DNA of 64,000 nt from Litorivivens lipolytica (GTDB lineage: Bacteria; Pseudomonadota; Gammaproteobacteria; Pseudomonadales; Spongiibacteraceae). Positions 50,809 through 56,137 of this stretch are shown here, in pieces. The notes beneath the pieces are model-generated. The model worked only from the letters and a program-made list of their open reading frames with translations, was not told the DNA's origin and made no database searches. The stretch covers positions 248,001-312,000 of the forward strand of contig NZ_JACHWY010000003.1 of NCBI RefSeq assembly GCF_014191715.1, given 5' to 3'. Position numbers and translations under genes: made by a program. The first letter of the stretch is position 1; every line of letters starts with the position of its first letter.

Positions 50809-51294
50809 ATGCCGTTCAGCGCCCGACAACTTTACCTAGCCATCACTCTGGTGTGCGCCGCCCTGCTCGGCTACGCCCTGTACACCGAATATTATCTGGG
50901 CCTGATCCCCTGCGCCCTGTGCATGACCCAGCGTTTCTTTTACGTGTGCACGGGCGCGGTTGCCCTGATCGCCGCGATTCACAACCCCGCAACCTTGGGC
51001 CGCCGGATTTACTCCGGCTTGATGGTGCTCGCCAGCGGTTTTGGCGCCGGCGTTGCCGGACGCCAGGTATGGCTCCAACACCTGCCGGAAGATCAGGTGC
51101 CCGCCTGCGGCCCCAGCCTGGAATACATCCTCGACACGCTGCCATTGGCTGATGCCTTTACCACCCTGATGATGGGTGACGGCAACTGCGCCGAGGTGCA
51201 ATGGACCTTCCTCGGTCAGAGCATGCCCACCTGGTCACTAATCTGGTTTGTGATTCTTATCCTGACTGCACTGGTTTCACTACGCGCCAAATGA
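50809..51294 (+). CDS. dsbB: Disulfide bond formation protein B
   Basis: DsbB reoxidises periplasmic DsbA and passes electrons to ubiquinone. The 161-residue protein has four membrane segments and both redox cysteine pairs: C35-x2-C38 (IPCALCMTQR) in the first periplasmic loop, and C100 and C127 in the second. It starts 5 bases after acpH and overlaps the lrgA-like gene by four bases (ATGA). A dsbA gene is not in the window. Confidence 0.94.
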   Translation: MPFSARQLYLAITLVCAALLGYALYTEYYLGLIPCALCMTQRFFYVCTGAVALIAAIHNPATLGRRIYSGLMVLASGFGAGVAGRQVWLQHLPEDQVPACGPSLEYILDTLPLADAFTTLMMGDGNCAEVQWTFLGQSMPTWSLIWFVILILTALVSLRAK

Positions 51295-51635
51295 AAGTCT
51301 CCGGCATTCTCACGCTGCTGATTTTTCACCTACTCGGTGAGGCCATTGTGCGCGCCACCGGATTGTTTATTCCCGGCGCCGTGGTCGGTCTGTTGCTACT
51401 ATTTTTCACTCTGCTGATTCGTGGGCAACTGTCGAGCGGGCTGGAACAGTCCAGCAAAACCCTGATCGGTTTTTTGCCTCTGCTGTTGATACTTTCCTCT
51501 GCCGGTATCTTTTTTTTAGGTGAGGCCTTTAGCGATCAATGGCTCGCCTTTGCCGGTGCCATCGTCGCCGGTACGATTTTGACGCTGGTGTTCTGCGCCC
51601 TGCTGATGAAGCTGATGGTGAAGCCCAATGACTGA
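51291..51635 (+). CDS. lrgA: CidA/LrgA family holin-like membrane protein
   Basis: This 114-residue membrane protein has four hydrophobic segments. The family signature covers VSGILTLLIFHLLGEAIVRATGLFIPGAVVGLLLLF in the first two, followed by LPLLLILSSAGIFF. CidA/LrgA proteins were described as holin/antiholin-like and later linked to export of overflow metabolites such as pyruvate, together with their B partner. The start at 51291 was chosen because it overlaps the dsbB stop and gives the family length; a longer upstream frame would lie wholly within dsbB. Confidence 0.88.
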   Translation: MKVSGILTLLIFHLLGEAIVRATGLFIPGAVVGLLLLFFTLLIRGQLSSGLEQSSKTLIGFLPLLLILSSAGIFFLGEAFSDQWLAFAGAIVAGTILTLVFCALLMKLMVKPND

Positions 51636-52323
51636 GCTGCTCACCTCACCCCTGTTCGCCATCACCGTTGTGCTTGGCGCTTATCAAGCCGCCGTCTGGC
51701 TCTATGAAAAAAGTGACCGACTGGTGTGGCTGCACCCGACCATCAGCGGTGCACTGGTAGTGGCGGCTGTGCTCGCCTTGCTCGATATCGATTACCACCG
51801 TTTCAGCGACGCCGCTTACTGGCTGACTTTCTGGCTTGGGCCGGCCACGGTTGCGCTGGCAATTCCGCTGTACCAGCAGTGGCATTTGATCCGAAAAATG
51901 GCAGAGCCATTGCTATTAACCCTTATCGCCGGCGCGGCCTTTGCCTGCCTGTCGGCGCTGGCTATTGCCTGGCTGCTTGGCGGCAGCGCAACGACGCTGC
52001 TTTCACTCAGCGCCAAGTCCGTCACCACACCGATTGCCATCGGCATCAGCGAAAGCATGGGCGGTCTTGCAACTATTACCGCCAGCGCCGTAATTCTTAC
52101 CGGCATTGTCGGCATCGTGTTTGTAAATATAACGATGAAACTATGCCGCATTGACGACGATAGGATCTGGGGCTTCTGCCTCGGCCTCAGCGCCCACGCT
52201 ATTGGCACCGCCCGCGCTTTTGAACGCAGCCCGGTGGCCGGTGCATTTTCCAGTCTTGCGCTTTGTCTGACCGGGAGTTACAGCGCGGTGTTTATTCCAC
52301 TGGCGTTGCAGTGGTTTCGCTAA
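51628..52323 (+). CDS. lrgB: CidB/LrgB family membrane protein
   Basis: This 231-residue polytopic protein with about six or seven hydrophobic segments is the partner of the preceding LrgA-like protein. Signatures include WLHPTISGALVVAAVLALLDI, FWLGPATVALAIPLYQQWHLI, LSAKSVTTPIAIGISESMGG and GLSAHAIGTARAFE. It overlaps lrgA by 8 bases. The operon ends in a clear terminator 15 bases further on. Confidence 0.92.
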   Translation: MTELLTSPLFAITVVLGAYQAAVWLYEKSDRLVWLHPTISGALVVAAVLALLDIDYHRFSDAAYWLTFWLGPATVALAIPLYQQWHLIRKMAEPLLLTLIAGAAFACLSALAIAWLLGGSATTLLSLSAKSVTTPIAIGISESMGGLATITASAVILTGIVGIVFVNITMKLCRIDDDRIWGFCLGLSAHAIGTARAFERSPVAGAFSSLALCLTGSYSAVFIPLALQWFR

Positions 52324-52338
52324 TCCCTCAAAAATAAA

Positions 52339-52360
52339 AAAGGCTCCCGAAGGAGCCTTT
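52339..52360. terminator. Bidirectional terminator after lrgB
   Basis: The perfect 9-bp stem AAAGGCTCC/GGAGCCTTT has loop CGAA. An A-rich run lies just before it, giving a T run for minus-strand transcripts. It lies between convergent lrgB and the secreted DUF4785-like gene. Confidence 0.85.
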
Positions 52361-52377: not shown

Positions 52378-53379
52378 TTATTGCAGGCGCGCTGCAGTAT
52401 CCAGCAGATCACTTCGACCGAAGGGCTTATCGGTCAAGGCAGTCGGCAGGATGGGCGCGGTAGTGTGGGCGTTTTCCAACACCTCACCCAGTGCGTTAGG
52501 CATGCCGTGGGTTGTGGTCAGTGTAACTGCTCCCAGCGACAGTGAGCCGGCCACACCAGCTTCACGCAGGGGCAGACCGTAAACCGGCAGTTCCACCCAT
52601 TGCTCGCCTTCACCCAGCACCGCAGCGGTTTGGGCAATCACCAGAGGCTCACCCAGTGGGCTGTTGATAACACCGGACAGATGCACTCGGCCCGCCTTCA
52701 CAACGTCAACCTGCGCCGCAATCACCAGATTGCCGTTGACGATGCTGTCCGCGAACTTGCCGGTCAAGGTGGCGGCAGGATGGCTGTATTGAAAGCCGTT
52801 CATCGCCACGCGCTGCTCCTGGGCATCGTTTTCCGCCGTTACGCGAAAGCCGAGGCTGGTCGCCTGACCGACAGCGGGCTGCCCCGCTTCACCCAGGGTG
52901 TAGGACGCAGAGTAAATGCCGTCACCTGCGGTCTGATCGGCACCCTTGCCGTCATCGGCAAAGGTAACACTGGCCAGCGAATCGCCGCCTTGCGTGACCA
53001 CTTCGCCAGTGACCGTCCAAGGACCTTTGGCATCAGCAGAGGGCGCCGTGAGGATGTCCTCGTCTTTCTGCGGCCGCGATTGCAGCTGGGCAAACAGCTC
53101 GACCGTATCGCCACGCTGATAACGGATTTCGCCCGCCCACACAGAGAGGGCCGGGCCAGCGCCATTGGGGCCGGGCCGGGTAACCGTGTCGGGCTCGCGC
53201 TCTGACAGAATCGGATTCGGCGCACCAGCGGGGACCGGCAGCGTCCACTCCGGGTATTTGGACAGGTTCCGGTATTCCGCCGCAGCCTGATCAGCTAGCT
53301 TGGGCGCGTCAGCCGCGCTCGCGACGGAAGAAATAAAGGGCAGTACCGACAGCACTGCAACTTTCGAAAACGTGTTCAT
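52378..53379 (-). CDS. Secreted beta-domain protein, choice-of-anchor X / DUF4785-like
   Basis: I only partly recognise this 333-residue secreted protein. A signal peptide covers about 1-22 (SSVASA-AD). The first half (about 65-200) looks like an immunoglobulin-type module with an acidic calcium-like loop, FADDGKGADQTAGDGIYSAS. That pattern recurs in proteins annotated choice-of-anchor X or DUF4785. The second half (about 200-333) is beta-rich, with the hydrophobic and valine-rich repeats expected of a second such domain. No catalytic motif is seen. It starts 22 bases downstream of the secreted hydrolase gene on the same strand, so the two very likely form an operon and may act together outside the cell. 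Confidence 0.7.
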   Translation of the reverse strand: MNTFSKVAVLSVLPFISSVASAADAPKLADQAAAEYRNLSKYPEWTLPVPAGAPNPILSEREPDTVTRPGPNGAGPALSVWAGEIRYQRGDTVELFAQLQSRPQKDEDILTAPSADAKGPWTVTGEVVTQGGDSLASVTFADDGKGADQTAGDGIYSASYTLGEAGQPAVGQATSLGFRVTAENDAQEQRVAMNGFQYSHPAATLTGKFADSIVNGNLVIAAQVDVVKAGRVHLSGVINSPLGEPLVIAQTAAVLGEGEQWVELPVYGLPLREAGVAGSLSLGAVTLTTTHGMPNALGEVLENAHTTAPILPTALTDKPFGRSDLLDTAARLQ

Positions 53380-53401
53380 CTCGTGTCTCCTTGGCAGTGG
53401 A

Positions 53402-54409
53402 TCAGTACAAAATGCTGATGAATTTAGCAGTGGTCATGGAGCTCTGGACCGACGTGTTCGGCGAGCAAGGGCTGCCACTGCAGGTCCAGATACCATCAGG
53501 AATCTGGCGACGGGTATCCGAGTCGCTGTCATCGCGCTCGTCGCCATGATTTTCGTGGGCCGCATCGAGGTTACGGAAACCGGAGACTTCCTGTTTGTAG
53601 CTGTTATTACAGGCATTGCTGTTGTTGTAGCTCGCGCTTGCGCTGCCGTCACAGGCATAGATCGACGCGTACTGCACCACACCATCATCTTCACCGCTCA
53701 GACAGGCGCTGGCACCGAAGATTGCCTCATAGCCGCCAGTCAGGTAAATATTTTTCGCTGGCGCGCTGGCATAGGTTCGAACCTGTACGTCGTTAGAGCT
53801 GCGAAGCCAGTAGGTGGCGTCATCGCAGTCTTGGATCCAGCCCGCGAACCAGTTACAACCACCACTTGACTGGCCGCATACCGCATCGGCACCTTCAGAA
53901 CCCCGGTGGGCGCCGCCAATGGTCATTGCCAGACTGACGCGCTGCGCAACCGTGTCATAGGGGCCGTTGTAGTTGTAGTTTGGGTCTGACGGGTCGTTGT
54001 TGCCCAAAATGTAGTCCGTGATGGTGCTGCCCATGCTGTGAGCTACGATCCAGAAGGTTCCGCCCTGCGCGTAGGTCTTGCTGCAGCGGTTGCCGCCCGC
54101 ATCAGCCACGCCGTTAGTGGCCGCCACAATTTCGTTTGCCACTTCGCCGGCTGACTGGGATTCCCAGTAGGGGCGAGTGCCGTTGTAGCCAACCACATAG
54201 AAATCGGTGGCAAAGTTTTTGGTTGCAGTTCTGATGAAGTCCTTACTTCCATTTACCCAGTAATTTCGGGCGGCGGTGTAGCTGGTGTAGGTATTGGTAT
54301 CCGTCTGTTTGCCGTGAACAAAAATCAGACAGTCGGCAGCGAACGATTGAGAGGCTGCTGAAAACAGCACCGCCCCAACCACCGCGCGCAACGCGGACAG
54401 GTATCGCAT
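53402..54409 (-). CDS. Secreted alpha/beta hydrolase, lipase-like
   Basis: This is a 335-residue exported protein. A signal peptide covers about 1-25 (SQSFAA). An alpha/beta-hydrolase core follows: oxyanion strand LIFVHGK (about 28-34), nucleophile elbow IVAHSMGS with S125, and likely acid D241 or D242 (GEDDGVV). The histidine is probably H285 or H288 (AHENHGD). The mature chain has ten cysteines (27, 109, 178, 185, 195, 236, 253, 267, 310, 315), so several disulphides are expected. The first elbow glycine is alanine, as in many lipases. The substrate is unknown; a lipase, esterase or depolymerase are all possible. Three CRP-like sites lie upstream. Confidence 0.78.
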   Translation of the reverse strand: MRYLSALRAVVGAVLFSAASQSFAADCLIFVHGKQTDTNTYTSYTAARNYWVNGSKDFIRTATKNFATDFYVVGYNGTRPYWESQSAGEVANEIVAATNGVADAGGNRCSKTYAQGGTFWIVAHSMGSTITDYILGNNDPSDPNYNYNGPYDTVAQRVSLAMTIGGAHRGSEGADAVCGQSSGGCNWFAGWIQDCDDATYWLRSSNDVQVRTYASAPAKNIYLTGGYEAIFGASACLSGEDDGVVQYASIYACDGSASASYNNSNACNNSYKQEVSGFRNLDAAHENHGDERDDSDSDTRRQIPDGIWTCSGSPCSPNTSVQSSMTTAKFISILY

Positions 54410-54515
54410 GATGATTCCCTCTTCAATTTTAATTTTTACTTATAGCGTTTCGGGTTGACCACTAGGGTCGCCAAAGCATCGTGCGCACAATGTTGGTGCT
54501 TCAAGTGAAGCTGAA

Positions 54516-54531
54516 TGTGATCACTGTCACC
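54516..54531 (-). promoter_or_regulatory. CRP/Vfr-like site upstream of the secreted hydrolase
   Basis: The sequence TGTGATCACTGTCACC fits the CRP consensus TGTGA-N6-TCACA at 9 of 10 core positions. It begins 107 bases upstream of the hydrolase start, in a 273-base intergenic region that is comparatively AT-rich and has no gene. Confidence 0.5.
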
Positions 54532-54581
54532 AATAAGGGAAATGAATCGAGGGTATAGGGTCGCGAAATAGTCGCGCCGTT

Positions 54582-54597
54582 AGTGACACGCAGCACA
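54582..54597 (-). promoter_or_regulatory. Second CRP-like site
   Basis: AGTGACACGCAGCACA matches TGTGA-N6-TCACA at 8 of 10 core positions and shares the spacer CACGCA with the next site. The 10-base run GTGACACGCA is repeated directly at 54583 and 54626. Confidence 0.4.
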
Positions 54598-54624
54598 ACT
54601 AATGTAAATTAGTCGCATAAAAAA

Positions 54625-54640
54625 TGTGACACGCATCACT
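54625..54640 (-). promoter_or_regulatory. Third CRP-like site
   Basis: TGTGACACGCATCACT matches the CRP consensus at 9 of 10 core positions. It lies 43 bases from the second site, about four helical turns. It is 216 bases upstream of the hydrolase gene and just beyond the thiI 3' end. Confidence 0.45.
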
Positions 54641-54682
54641 AAAGATTGCGTCGTTAGCGATCAAATAATCGACAGCCACCCC

Positions 54683-56137
54683 TCAGGCGGGACGGTAGAC
54701 CTTGATATTGGCAAAGCCTTGCTCCACCAGATGCGCCGCATGCAGACGACTCATCACCCCCTTATCGCAATACAGGAGGTAGGTGATGTCACTGCTCAGC
54801 TCGGAGGATTTGCTGTGCAGCTCGTAAAAGGGCAGGTTCTGCACCGTCACGCCCGCAAGCTTCAGCGGCGAGCGCTCGGCCTCATCCGGGTGGCGCACAT
54901 CCAGCACAATGGCATCGGGCAAGGGCACCGGCAGCACCTCCACCTCTATCCGCTCCAGCTCTTCGTTAGCCAGCTCATCGATGGTGGTATAGCGCGCCTT
55001 GGCGAGCGCCGCCTCCAGCACCGCAAAGTCAAACTTCGCCTCCTGCTCGGCAACACGCTCCGGACGCGCCTTGGTGGTAGGCTTCACGGAAATAACGCCG
55101 CAATATTCCGGCATATTCGCCGCAAATTCCTCGGTACCAATCTCTGCGGCGGTACGGATGATGTCACCCTTGTCGGCGGCGATCAGCGGTCTCAATACCA
55201 ACTTGTCGGTAACCGCATCAATCACCGACAGATTGGTCAGCGTCTGGCTGGACACCTGGGCAATAGCTTCCCCCGTCACCAGCGCCTGCACATTCAGCTC
55301 ATCGGCCACCTTTTCCGCAGCGCGCAGCATCATGCGCTTGAGCACCACACCCATCTGCGAGTTGTCGACATTCTTCAGAATCTCGCCGACCACATCTTCA
55401 AAGGGCACGGTGACGAACTTCACCCGGTGCGAAGCGCCGTACTTCATCCACAGATAGAGCGCGACTTCCTTTACGCCGATTTCGTGATCACGCCCACCAA
55501 GATTAAAGAAACAGAAATGGGTGCGCAGGCCGCGCTTCATCATCAGGTAACTGGCAACCGGCGAATCAAAGCCGCCGGAAATCAATGACAGCACCGGGTC
55601 GAGGCTACCCAGCGGAAAGCCGCCCAAGCCGGGGTAGCGCTGATTGACCACAAACACCGTCTCGTCGCGCACTTCGATACGCACCACCACCTCGGGATTC
55701 GCCAGATCCACCCCTGCGGCGTCGGTATGCTGGTTAAGGCCGCCGCCCACATAGCGCTCCACATCCAGCGACTGAAAGTCGTGGGTGCCGGTACGCTTGC
55801 AGCGCACACTGAAACGCTTGCCCGCCAGACGCTCAGCCCACAGCGCCAGGGTCTTCTGATAAATATCGTCGATGCTGACCAGCGGGTACTCAGCCACATC
55901 CATGAAATAAGCAATGCCGGGGGTATTGCGCAACACCTCGACAAAGCTGGCGAGCGTTTCCGGGTCGGTACTGCGGGTCGCCACCACCATCTTGTCCCAC
56001 TCCCGCGCCACGTGAACCTCGGGGTCGAGCGGCTGCAACAGACGCTTCACATTGGTGTGCAACTGTTTAACGAACTGCTTGCGAACCGGGCGGCTCTTGA
56101 TGGTAATTTCGGGGAAAAACTTGACGATAAACTTCAT
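54683..56137 (-). CDS. thiI: tRNA 4-thiouridine synthase ThiI with rhodanese domain
   Basis: ThiI makes 4-thiouridine at position 8 of tRNA and, in enterobacteria, supplies sulphur to thiazole synthesis. The 484-residue protein has an N-terminal ferredoxin-like and THUMP region (about 1-165). The PP-loop ATPase motif SGGFDS is at 187-192, and C346 (EYCGVIS) is the disulphide partner. A C-terminal rhodanese domain carries the catalytic persulphide cysteine C457 (YCDKGVMS). Its divergent neighbour is glnA; the 345-base gap holds the glnA regulatory region. Confidence 0.96.

Follow-up and report, generated by a model that had tools for sequence, protein, structure and literature searches.

In the window, by which we mean the whole 64-kb stretch of DNA that was analysed, a gene for a secreted, lipase-like hydrolase is followed directly by a gene for an exported all-beta protein, here called the partner, and there is very strong evidence from other genomes that this pair is conserved by descent and adjacency. 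Judging from its predicted structure, the partner belongs to the fold family of NttD, a DUF4785 protein of Legionella pneumophila, and it is probably the dedicated helper of the enzyme; the best reading is that it acts as a periplasmic chaperone or secretion partner of a new structural type. The 22 bases that the first-pass annotation had placed between the two genes were confirmed from the sequence, with both reading frames as given in Table 1, and with this short gap and a terminator after the partner gene, hydrolase and partner constitute one transcription unit.

Table 1. Features of the hydrolase-partner locus (positions in the window)
Feature	Position	Strand	Basis
Secreted alpha/beta hydrolase, lipase-like, 335 aa	53402-54409	-	ORF, residue conservation, low-confidence fold model, profile comparison
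Exported all-beta partner, 333 aa, NttD/DUF4785-type, choice-of-anchor X loop	52378-53379	-	ORF, NF041940, profile vs 4kh9, AF2 model, fold searches
22-nt gap with AAGGAG ribosome-binding site for the partner	53380-53401	-	Sequence
Intrinsic terminator, 9-bp stem and T tail, 17 nt past the partner stop	52339-52360	-	1 found; shuffles mean 0.6
273-nt upstream region, thiI-like ORF to hydrolase, holding the regulatory sites	54410-54682	-	Sequence
Top-ranked CRP-like site of the window, GAATGTGATCACTGTCACCAAT	54513-54534		Consensus scan, shuffles
Weaker CRP-like half-site GTTAGTGACACGCAGCACAACT, rank 18 in the window	54579-54600		Consensus scan
Second-ranked CRP-like site of the window, AAATGTGACACGCATCACTAAA	54622-54643		Consensus scan, shuffles
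Presumed thiI-like ORF upstream of the pair	54683-56137	-	ORF

Directly after the pair, on the opposite strand, two membrane proteins are encoded (51201-52323), which we take to resemble LrgA/LrgB. A convergent DsbB-like gene (50809-51294) lies about 1 kb from the pair, and the hydrolase has ten conserved cysteines; this proximity is probably a coincidence.

The serine elbow at S125 and the ten cysteines that had been assigned to the hydrolase were both recovered, with Ser125 in an AHSMG motif and 10 Cys counted in a sequence whose N-terminus, judged by eye, is a Sec-type signal peptide. S125, D241, D242 and H288 are invariant in 21/21 aligned hydrolases, all 10 Cys are kept in 15/15 close members of the family, and Ser125, Asp241/Asp242 and His288 are proposed as the catalytic residues. 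The protein shows the pattern of family I-type lipases, that is, a Ser in an H-S-x-G elbow, an Asp and a His, with their roles predicted from sequence. No Pfam family matched the window hydrolase even at E 10; Lipase_2 matched 8 of the 21 aligned members weakly at E 0.1 (best 0.0015), the window protein not being among them, and profile A1 found no credible match among PDB sequences. The structure model of the hydrolase is of low confidence (pLDDT 54) and its fold matches are supportive only: the top Foldseek row was 1tah (E 2.9e-5), presumably the lipase of Pseudomonas glumae, now Burkholderia, and VIA gave a Z of 12.8 to 1tah and of up to 14.1 for small lipases. For an independent check of the fold, nine lipases adjacent to Lif genes were collected into a profile, with which the hydrolase profile aligned in hhalign with a probability of 91.7 (P 7.6e-7) over 49 columns, which include the HSxG elbow as well as a stretch reading GGAxxGSxxAD. 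The hydrolase is distantly related to lipases, and the case for a lipase-like enzyme class is strong. A Shiga toxin B-like hit to residues 11-53 (NCBIfam, E 0.041) is far under its cut-off (14.2 vs 201 bits), overlaps the end of the signal peptide and was put down to chance.

The partner had been described as choice-of-anchor X/DUF4785-like with an acidic loop. This loop, DDGKGADQTAGDG, is present in a sequence devoid of cysteine, and the relation to choice-of-anchor X exceeds the NCBIfam cut-off (NF041940, 34.2 vs 25 bits); no mention of choice-of-anchor X was found in the literature searched. The relation to DUF4785 holds for the fold, which is shared with NttD, whereas the match of the window protein itself to DUF4785_3rd is weak (20.4 vs a cut-off of 24.5 bits). 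DUF4785_3rd matches all 19 partner members with E values of no more than 0.1 and down to 5.9e-13; DUF4785_1st was not matched by the window partner in Pfam and is present in the partner of locus L007, and the window protein covers DUF4785 domains 2 and 3. The profile of the 19 members (A2) found Legionella NttD (PDB 4kh9) at E 2.3e-8. An AF2 model of the partner (pLDDT 88.4) is almost all strand, and its top match in both fold-search programs was 4kh9, with E 6.9e-12 in Foldseek and, in VIA, a Z of 14.5 over 220 residues at an rmsd of 3.6, the next unrelated row having 10.4. On the basis of this model, the central and C-terminal domains of the NttD/DUF4785 fold family are shared by the partner. 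A match to Glycosyl hydrolase 43 (16.9 vs 32.2 bits) was rejected, and arrestin, complement and alpha-2-macroglobulin rows, which are common Ig-like sandwiches with TM <0.3, were set aside.

A scan of contigs from 84,980 species retrieved 15 hydrolase relatives of 66-86% identity, many of them from MAGs, and the close relatives belong to Spongiibacteraceae, alpha- and other proteobacterial, acidobacterial, Polyangiaceae and Binatia records. The close set consists of the window and these 15 contigs, except that L035, whose contig ends 287 bases past the match, was dropped and L059 was added; three genomes that duplicated others in the count were discarded. In this set the partner gene lies directly downstream on the same strand in 16/16 cases (window, 14 contigs and L059). 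The same arrangement was found for 4 of 6 intermediate homologues of about 30% identity and for 7/7 distant pairs of the DUF4785 type that were found via the hydrolase (G209, G514, G606, G870, G882, G938 and a Pseudoalteromonas plasmid, where the pair is annotated as hypothetical protein, then DUF4785). The distant hydrolases belong to the same family as the close ones, as follows from a profile comparison (probability 98.2, P 3.3e-14, 142 columns). Overall, hydrolase searches yielded 29 hydrolases, 27 of them with the partner directly downstream, and the two unpaired ones (L050 9420-10556 and L055 4199-5425) lie in genomes, G006 and G189, that also carry the pair. When searched from the partner side, the DUF4785 family PF20943 occurred in 5/369 genomes of the class with the hydrolase directly upstream in 5/5, and no partner gene without the enzyme was seen in this sample. 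Far from being rarely together, the two genes show a persistent adjacency that supports the first-pass idea of a real enzyme and partner pair. In G184 (L049 3005-5499), a partner-like protein with a membrane anchor precedes a weakly related, DUF7379-like hydrolase (A4 profile, E 0.0017), which is the reversed order. The pair is nevertheless rare and patchy, being present in 5/21 genomes of its own family, and a single-sequence hydrolase search of the order gave 8/244 genomes, including one, L008, that was rejected as a homologue, its match being chance-like and covering 90 residues of a 7,499-aa frame. The long choice-of-anchor X type proteins of L018/L056 and L020, next to which no hydrolase was seen, were left uncounted. 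Adjacency of the pair is kept across phyla at strong divergence, and the flanking genes vary.

Some neighbours recur in subsets of these loci. In three Spongiibacteraceae (L021 7196-8715, L022 7215-8750, L023 7155-8709) the two genes after the pair encode a c-type cytochrome (PF13442) and a protein that resembles a lipoprotein and has a trypsin-like domain (PF13365), assigned by a family scan of L021 only; neither comes after the pair in the window. AraC-type regulators, recognized by eye, are encoded upstream of the hydrolase at loci of intermediate homologues, L004, L005, L006 and L009 (G075, G049, G189 and G006, respectively).

Among close orthologues, identity is only 32-52% for the partner versus 66-86% for the hydrolase, and over 15 close pairs the mean distance of the partner is about twice that of the enzyme (0.60 vs 0.28). 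The distance matrices of hydrolase and partner correlate in the same 15 pairs (Mantel r 0.82, 0/5000 permutations), a correlation that shared ancestry alone also yields. For seven pairs of a Lif and its lipase, used as calibrators, the corresponding values are 0.77 vs 0.47 with r 0.94. Topology of the partners was judged from hydropathy. Of the 19 aligned partners, 8 (4/15 among the close members) carry a hydrophobic anchor at the N-terminus, with 83-101 residues between it and the conserved core, and the other 11, including that of the window, have a signal-peptide-like start with a cleavage-type site and 29-45 residues before the core. Unless cleaved, anchored partners stay in the cell, and therefore the job of the partner should be periplasmic at least in those lineages.

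The region upstream of the hydrolase gene is comparatively AT-rich, as had been noted (44% GC vs 58% in the window), and the repeated sequence GTGACACGCA was indeed found twice, at 54583 and 54626, 43 bases apart. From the three CRP-type palindromes claimed for this gap, two strong ones were retained and the third proved weaker. In a scan with a CRP consensus and weights set by the author, in which all positions of the window were ranked, the top two sites both fell in this gap. When the gap was shuffled 20,000 times with its dinucleotides kept, 0.11% of the shuffles had one or more sites scoring 13.5 or better and none had two, and three sites of at least 11.2 appeared in 0.01%. The motif TGTGAN6TCAC is not enriched genome-wide (14 matches vs 16 for the reversed control), so that the argument for CRP consists of the two-site cluster in this gap: two of the 14 genomic matches are the strong gap sites, 109 bp apart. 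The best upstream scores in relatives from the family were 12.4 (L021), 12.0 (L022) and 10.2 (L023), and those of the other 11 relatives scored ranged from 8.6 to 10.9; as these candidates are weaker, conservation of the CRP sites is unsupported. As the thiI-like gene lies on the same strand, the gap sites would serve only this unit, barring an unseen gene on the opposite strand. A CRP orthologue is encoded in the genome (NF008732, 367 bits vs a cut-off of 266), and CRP control of the pair in the window is likely, as judged from these sites. In Stenotrophomonas maltophilia, a DUF4785 gene, its locus-tag neighbour and crp appear together in one resistance transcriptome, which is a correlation only (PMC12394494).

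We see about an even chance that the unit encodes a lipase with a dedicated accessory protein that helps the enzyme to fold or to be secreted, as Lif or CpaB do, and that it is switched on by cAMP-CRP. Both proteins would be exported by Sec, and in the periplasm the partner would bind the enzyme and aid it in becoming folded, disulphide-bonded and competent for secretion, in the manner of Lif with LipA and of CpaB with CpaA. The enzyme would then exit via the type II system, possibly together with the partner where the latter has a cleavable signal peptide, and cAMP-CRP would likely turn the unit on. The hydrolase has the by-eye Sec signal peptide expected of a type II substrate, and the genome has a type II secretion system (T2SS), represented by the component GspC (PF11356, 76.6 bits vs 27). 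That the partner is dedicated to the enzyme is supported by their adjacency over wide divergence, in both search directions, and from their correlated divergence with the partner faster than the enzyme, as for Lif. The reading as a whole is further supported by the anchor and linker of the tethered members, which is the architecture of Lif and CpaB, by the alignment of the enzyme profile with Lif-adjacent lipases, by the restriction of unpaired paralogues to pair-holding genomes, and by the presence of GspC and CRP in the genome. Against it speak the signal-peptide-like start seen in 11 A2 members, the window partner among them, an all-beta fold that is as like binding domains as chaperones, and the low confidence of the enzyme model. 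It is also weakened by reports that NttD is found in the culture supernatant and that an nttD mutant has normal bulk lipase activity (PMC5904407), although a deficit could be concealed by the activity of other lipases.

The same N-termini with a cleavable-type signal peptide would suit a co-secreted subunit or cofactor, forming a complex that acts outside the cell with beta-sandwich domains binding substrate, surface or enzyme. NttD fits this, as an exoprotein that depends on the T2SS for release and is required to infect Acanthamoeba (PMC5904407), as does the putative lipase Lpg0957, which is likewise listed among supernatant proteins (PMC6617341). However, an anchored partner would have to be cleaved before it could leave the cell, the partner gave no Pfam match to a known carbohydrate-binding module, and purified NttD is reported to lack glycosidase activity (PMC5904407), and we consider a co-secreted subunit rather unlikely. 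An immunity protein would account for the fast evolution, the adjacency and, in some lineages, the periplasmic anchoring no less well than a chaperone, and the partner might then be a periplasmic inhibitor that silences a membrane-damaging lipase until export. This is improbable in view of the export of NttD and its promotion of infection (PMC5904407), of the two hydrolase paralogues without an adjacent partner, and of the partner genes of the class sample, which all accompany an enzyme. Operons often hold unrelated genes and the pair is patchy within its family, yet it is very hard to believe that two unrelated exported proteins merely have a common promoter here, since their adjacency outlasts strong divergence across phyla with differing flanking genes, and since the related pair of G184 stays together in reversed order.

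The reading as a dedicated periplasmic helper has its closest models in Lif and CpaB, and by analogy the partner likely works like one of them. As with Lif and family I lipases (LipA/LipB, LipH), a lipase gene is followed by that of a dedicated partner, the enzyme folds appear related, the partner evolves faster than the enzyme, and some partners have a predicted anchor and linker. Lif foldases have a helical fold. The statement of the first-pass annotation that they are of a different type holds, and the partner is not a Lif: the 19 partner members gave no match to PF03280 at E 0.1, the partner model is all-beta, and the window partner has a signal-peptide-like start. No Lif gene was found in its own genome. 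An adjacent gene and an N-terminal membrane segment are common to Lif and CpaB (Harding et al., PMC4713064), and CpaA/CpaB of Acinetobacter resembles the window pair in that the partner gene follows 22 bp after the exoenzyme gene in a T2SS setting, whereas CpaB, to which an SRPBCC domain has been assigned, has a metallopeptidase as its client (PMC4713064). The unpaired hydrolase paralogues in pair-holding genomes recall LipC of Pseudomonas aeruginosa, which is served by the distant LipB, and Table 1 of the same article names no DUF4785 case (PMC4713064).

NttD (Lpg0956, PDB 4KH9) has fold and sequence profile in common with the window partner, which differs in being without the DUF4785_1st domain. 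In two genomes the gene directly upstream of an NttD-like partner encodes a related hydrolase: at L045, where the partner has a 4kh9 match of E 3.7e-93, and at L046, where it is NttD-like by profile. The gene nttD is the second of a four-gene operon, dimers of NttD are mediated by its N-terminal domain (PMC5904407), and Lpg0957 is its neighbour by locus tag (PMC6617341). By analogy we infer that Lpg0957 is the hydrolase of NttD, and it seems that this infection factor is partnered with the putative lipase next to it. A partnership of DUF4785 proteins and lipases was not found in the literature searched, which covered a minority of subscription papers. For NttD, which is known from its crystal structure and an infection phenotype, the pairing supplies a concrete candidate client. 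If the partner is a foldase, proteins dedicated to the folding of secreted lipases evolved at least twice, with unrelated folds, and a helper gene is at hand for producing a little-studied lipase family. We tentatively propose, with somewhat less than even confidence, that DUF4785-type proteins form, next to Lif and CpaB, a third structural class of chaperones dedicated to exoenzymes, all-beta, lipase-specific, present in several phyla, tethered in some and released with the client in others, and that NttD acts in amoebal infection via its neighbouring lipase and not alone. An exoenzyme with an adjacent dedicated partner is known from the Lif and CpaB systems; the fold of the partner and the connection to NttD are new.
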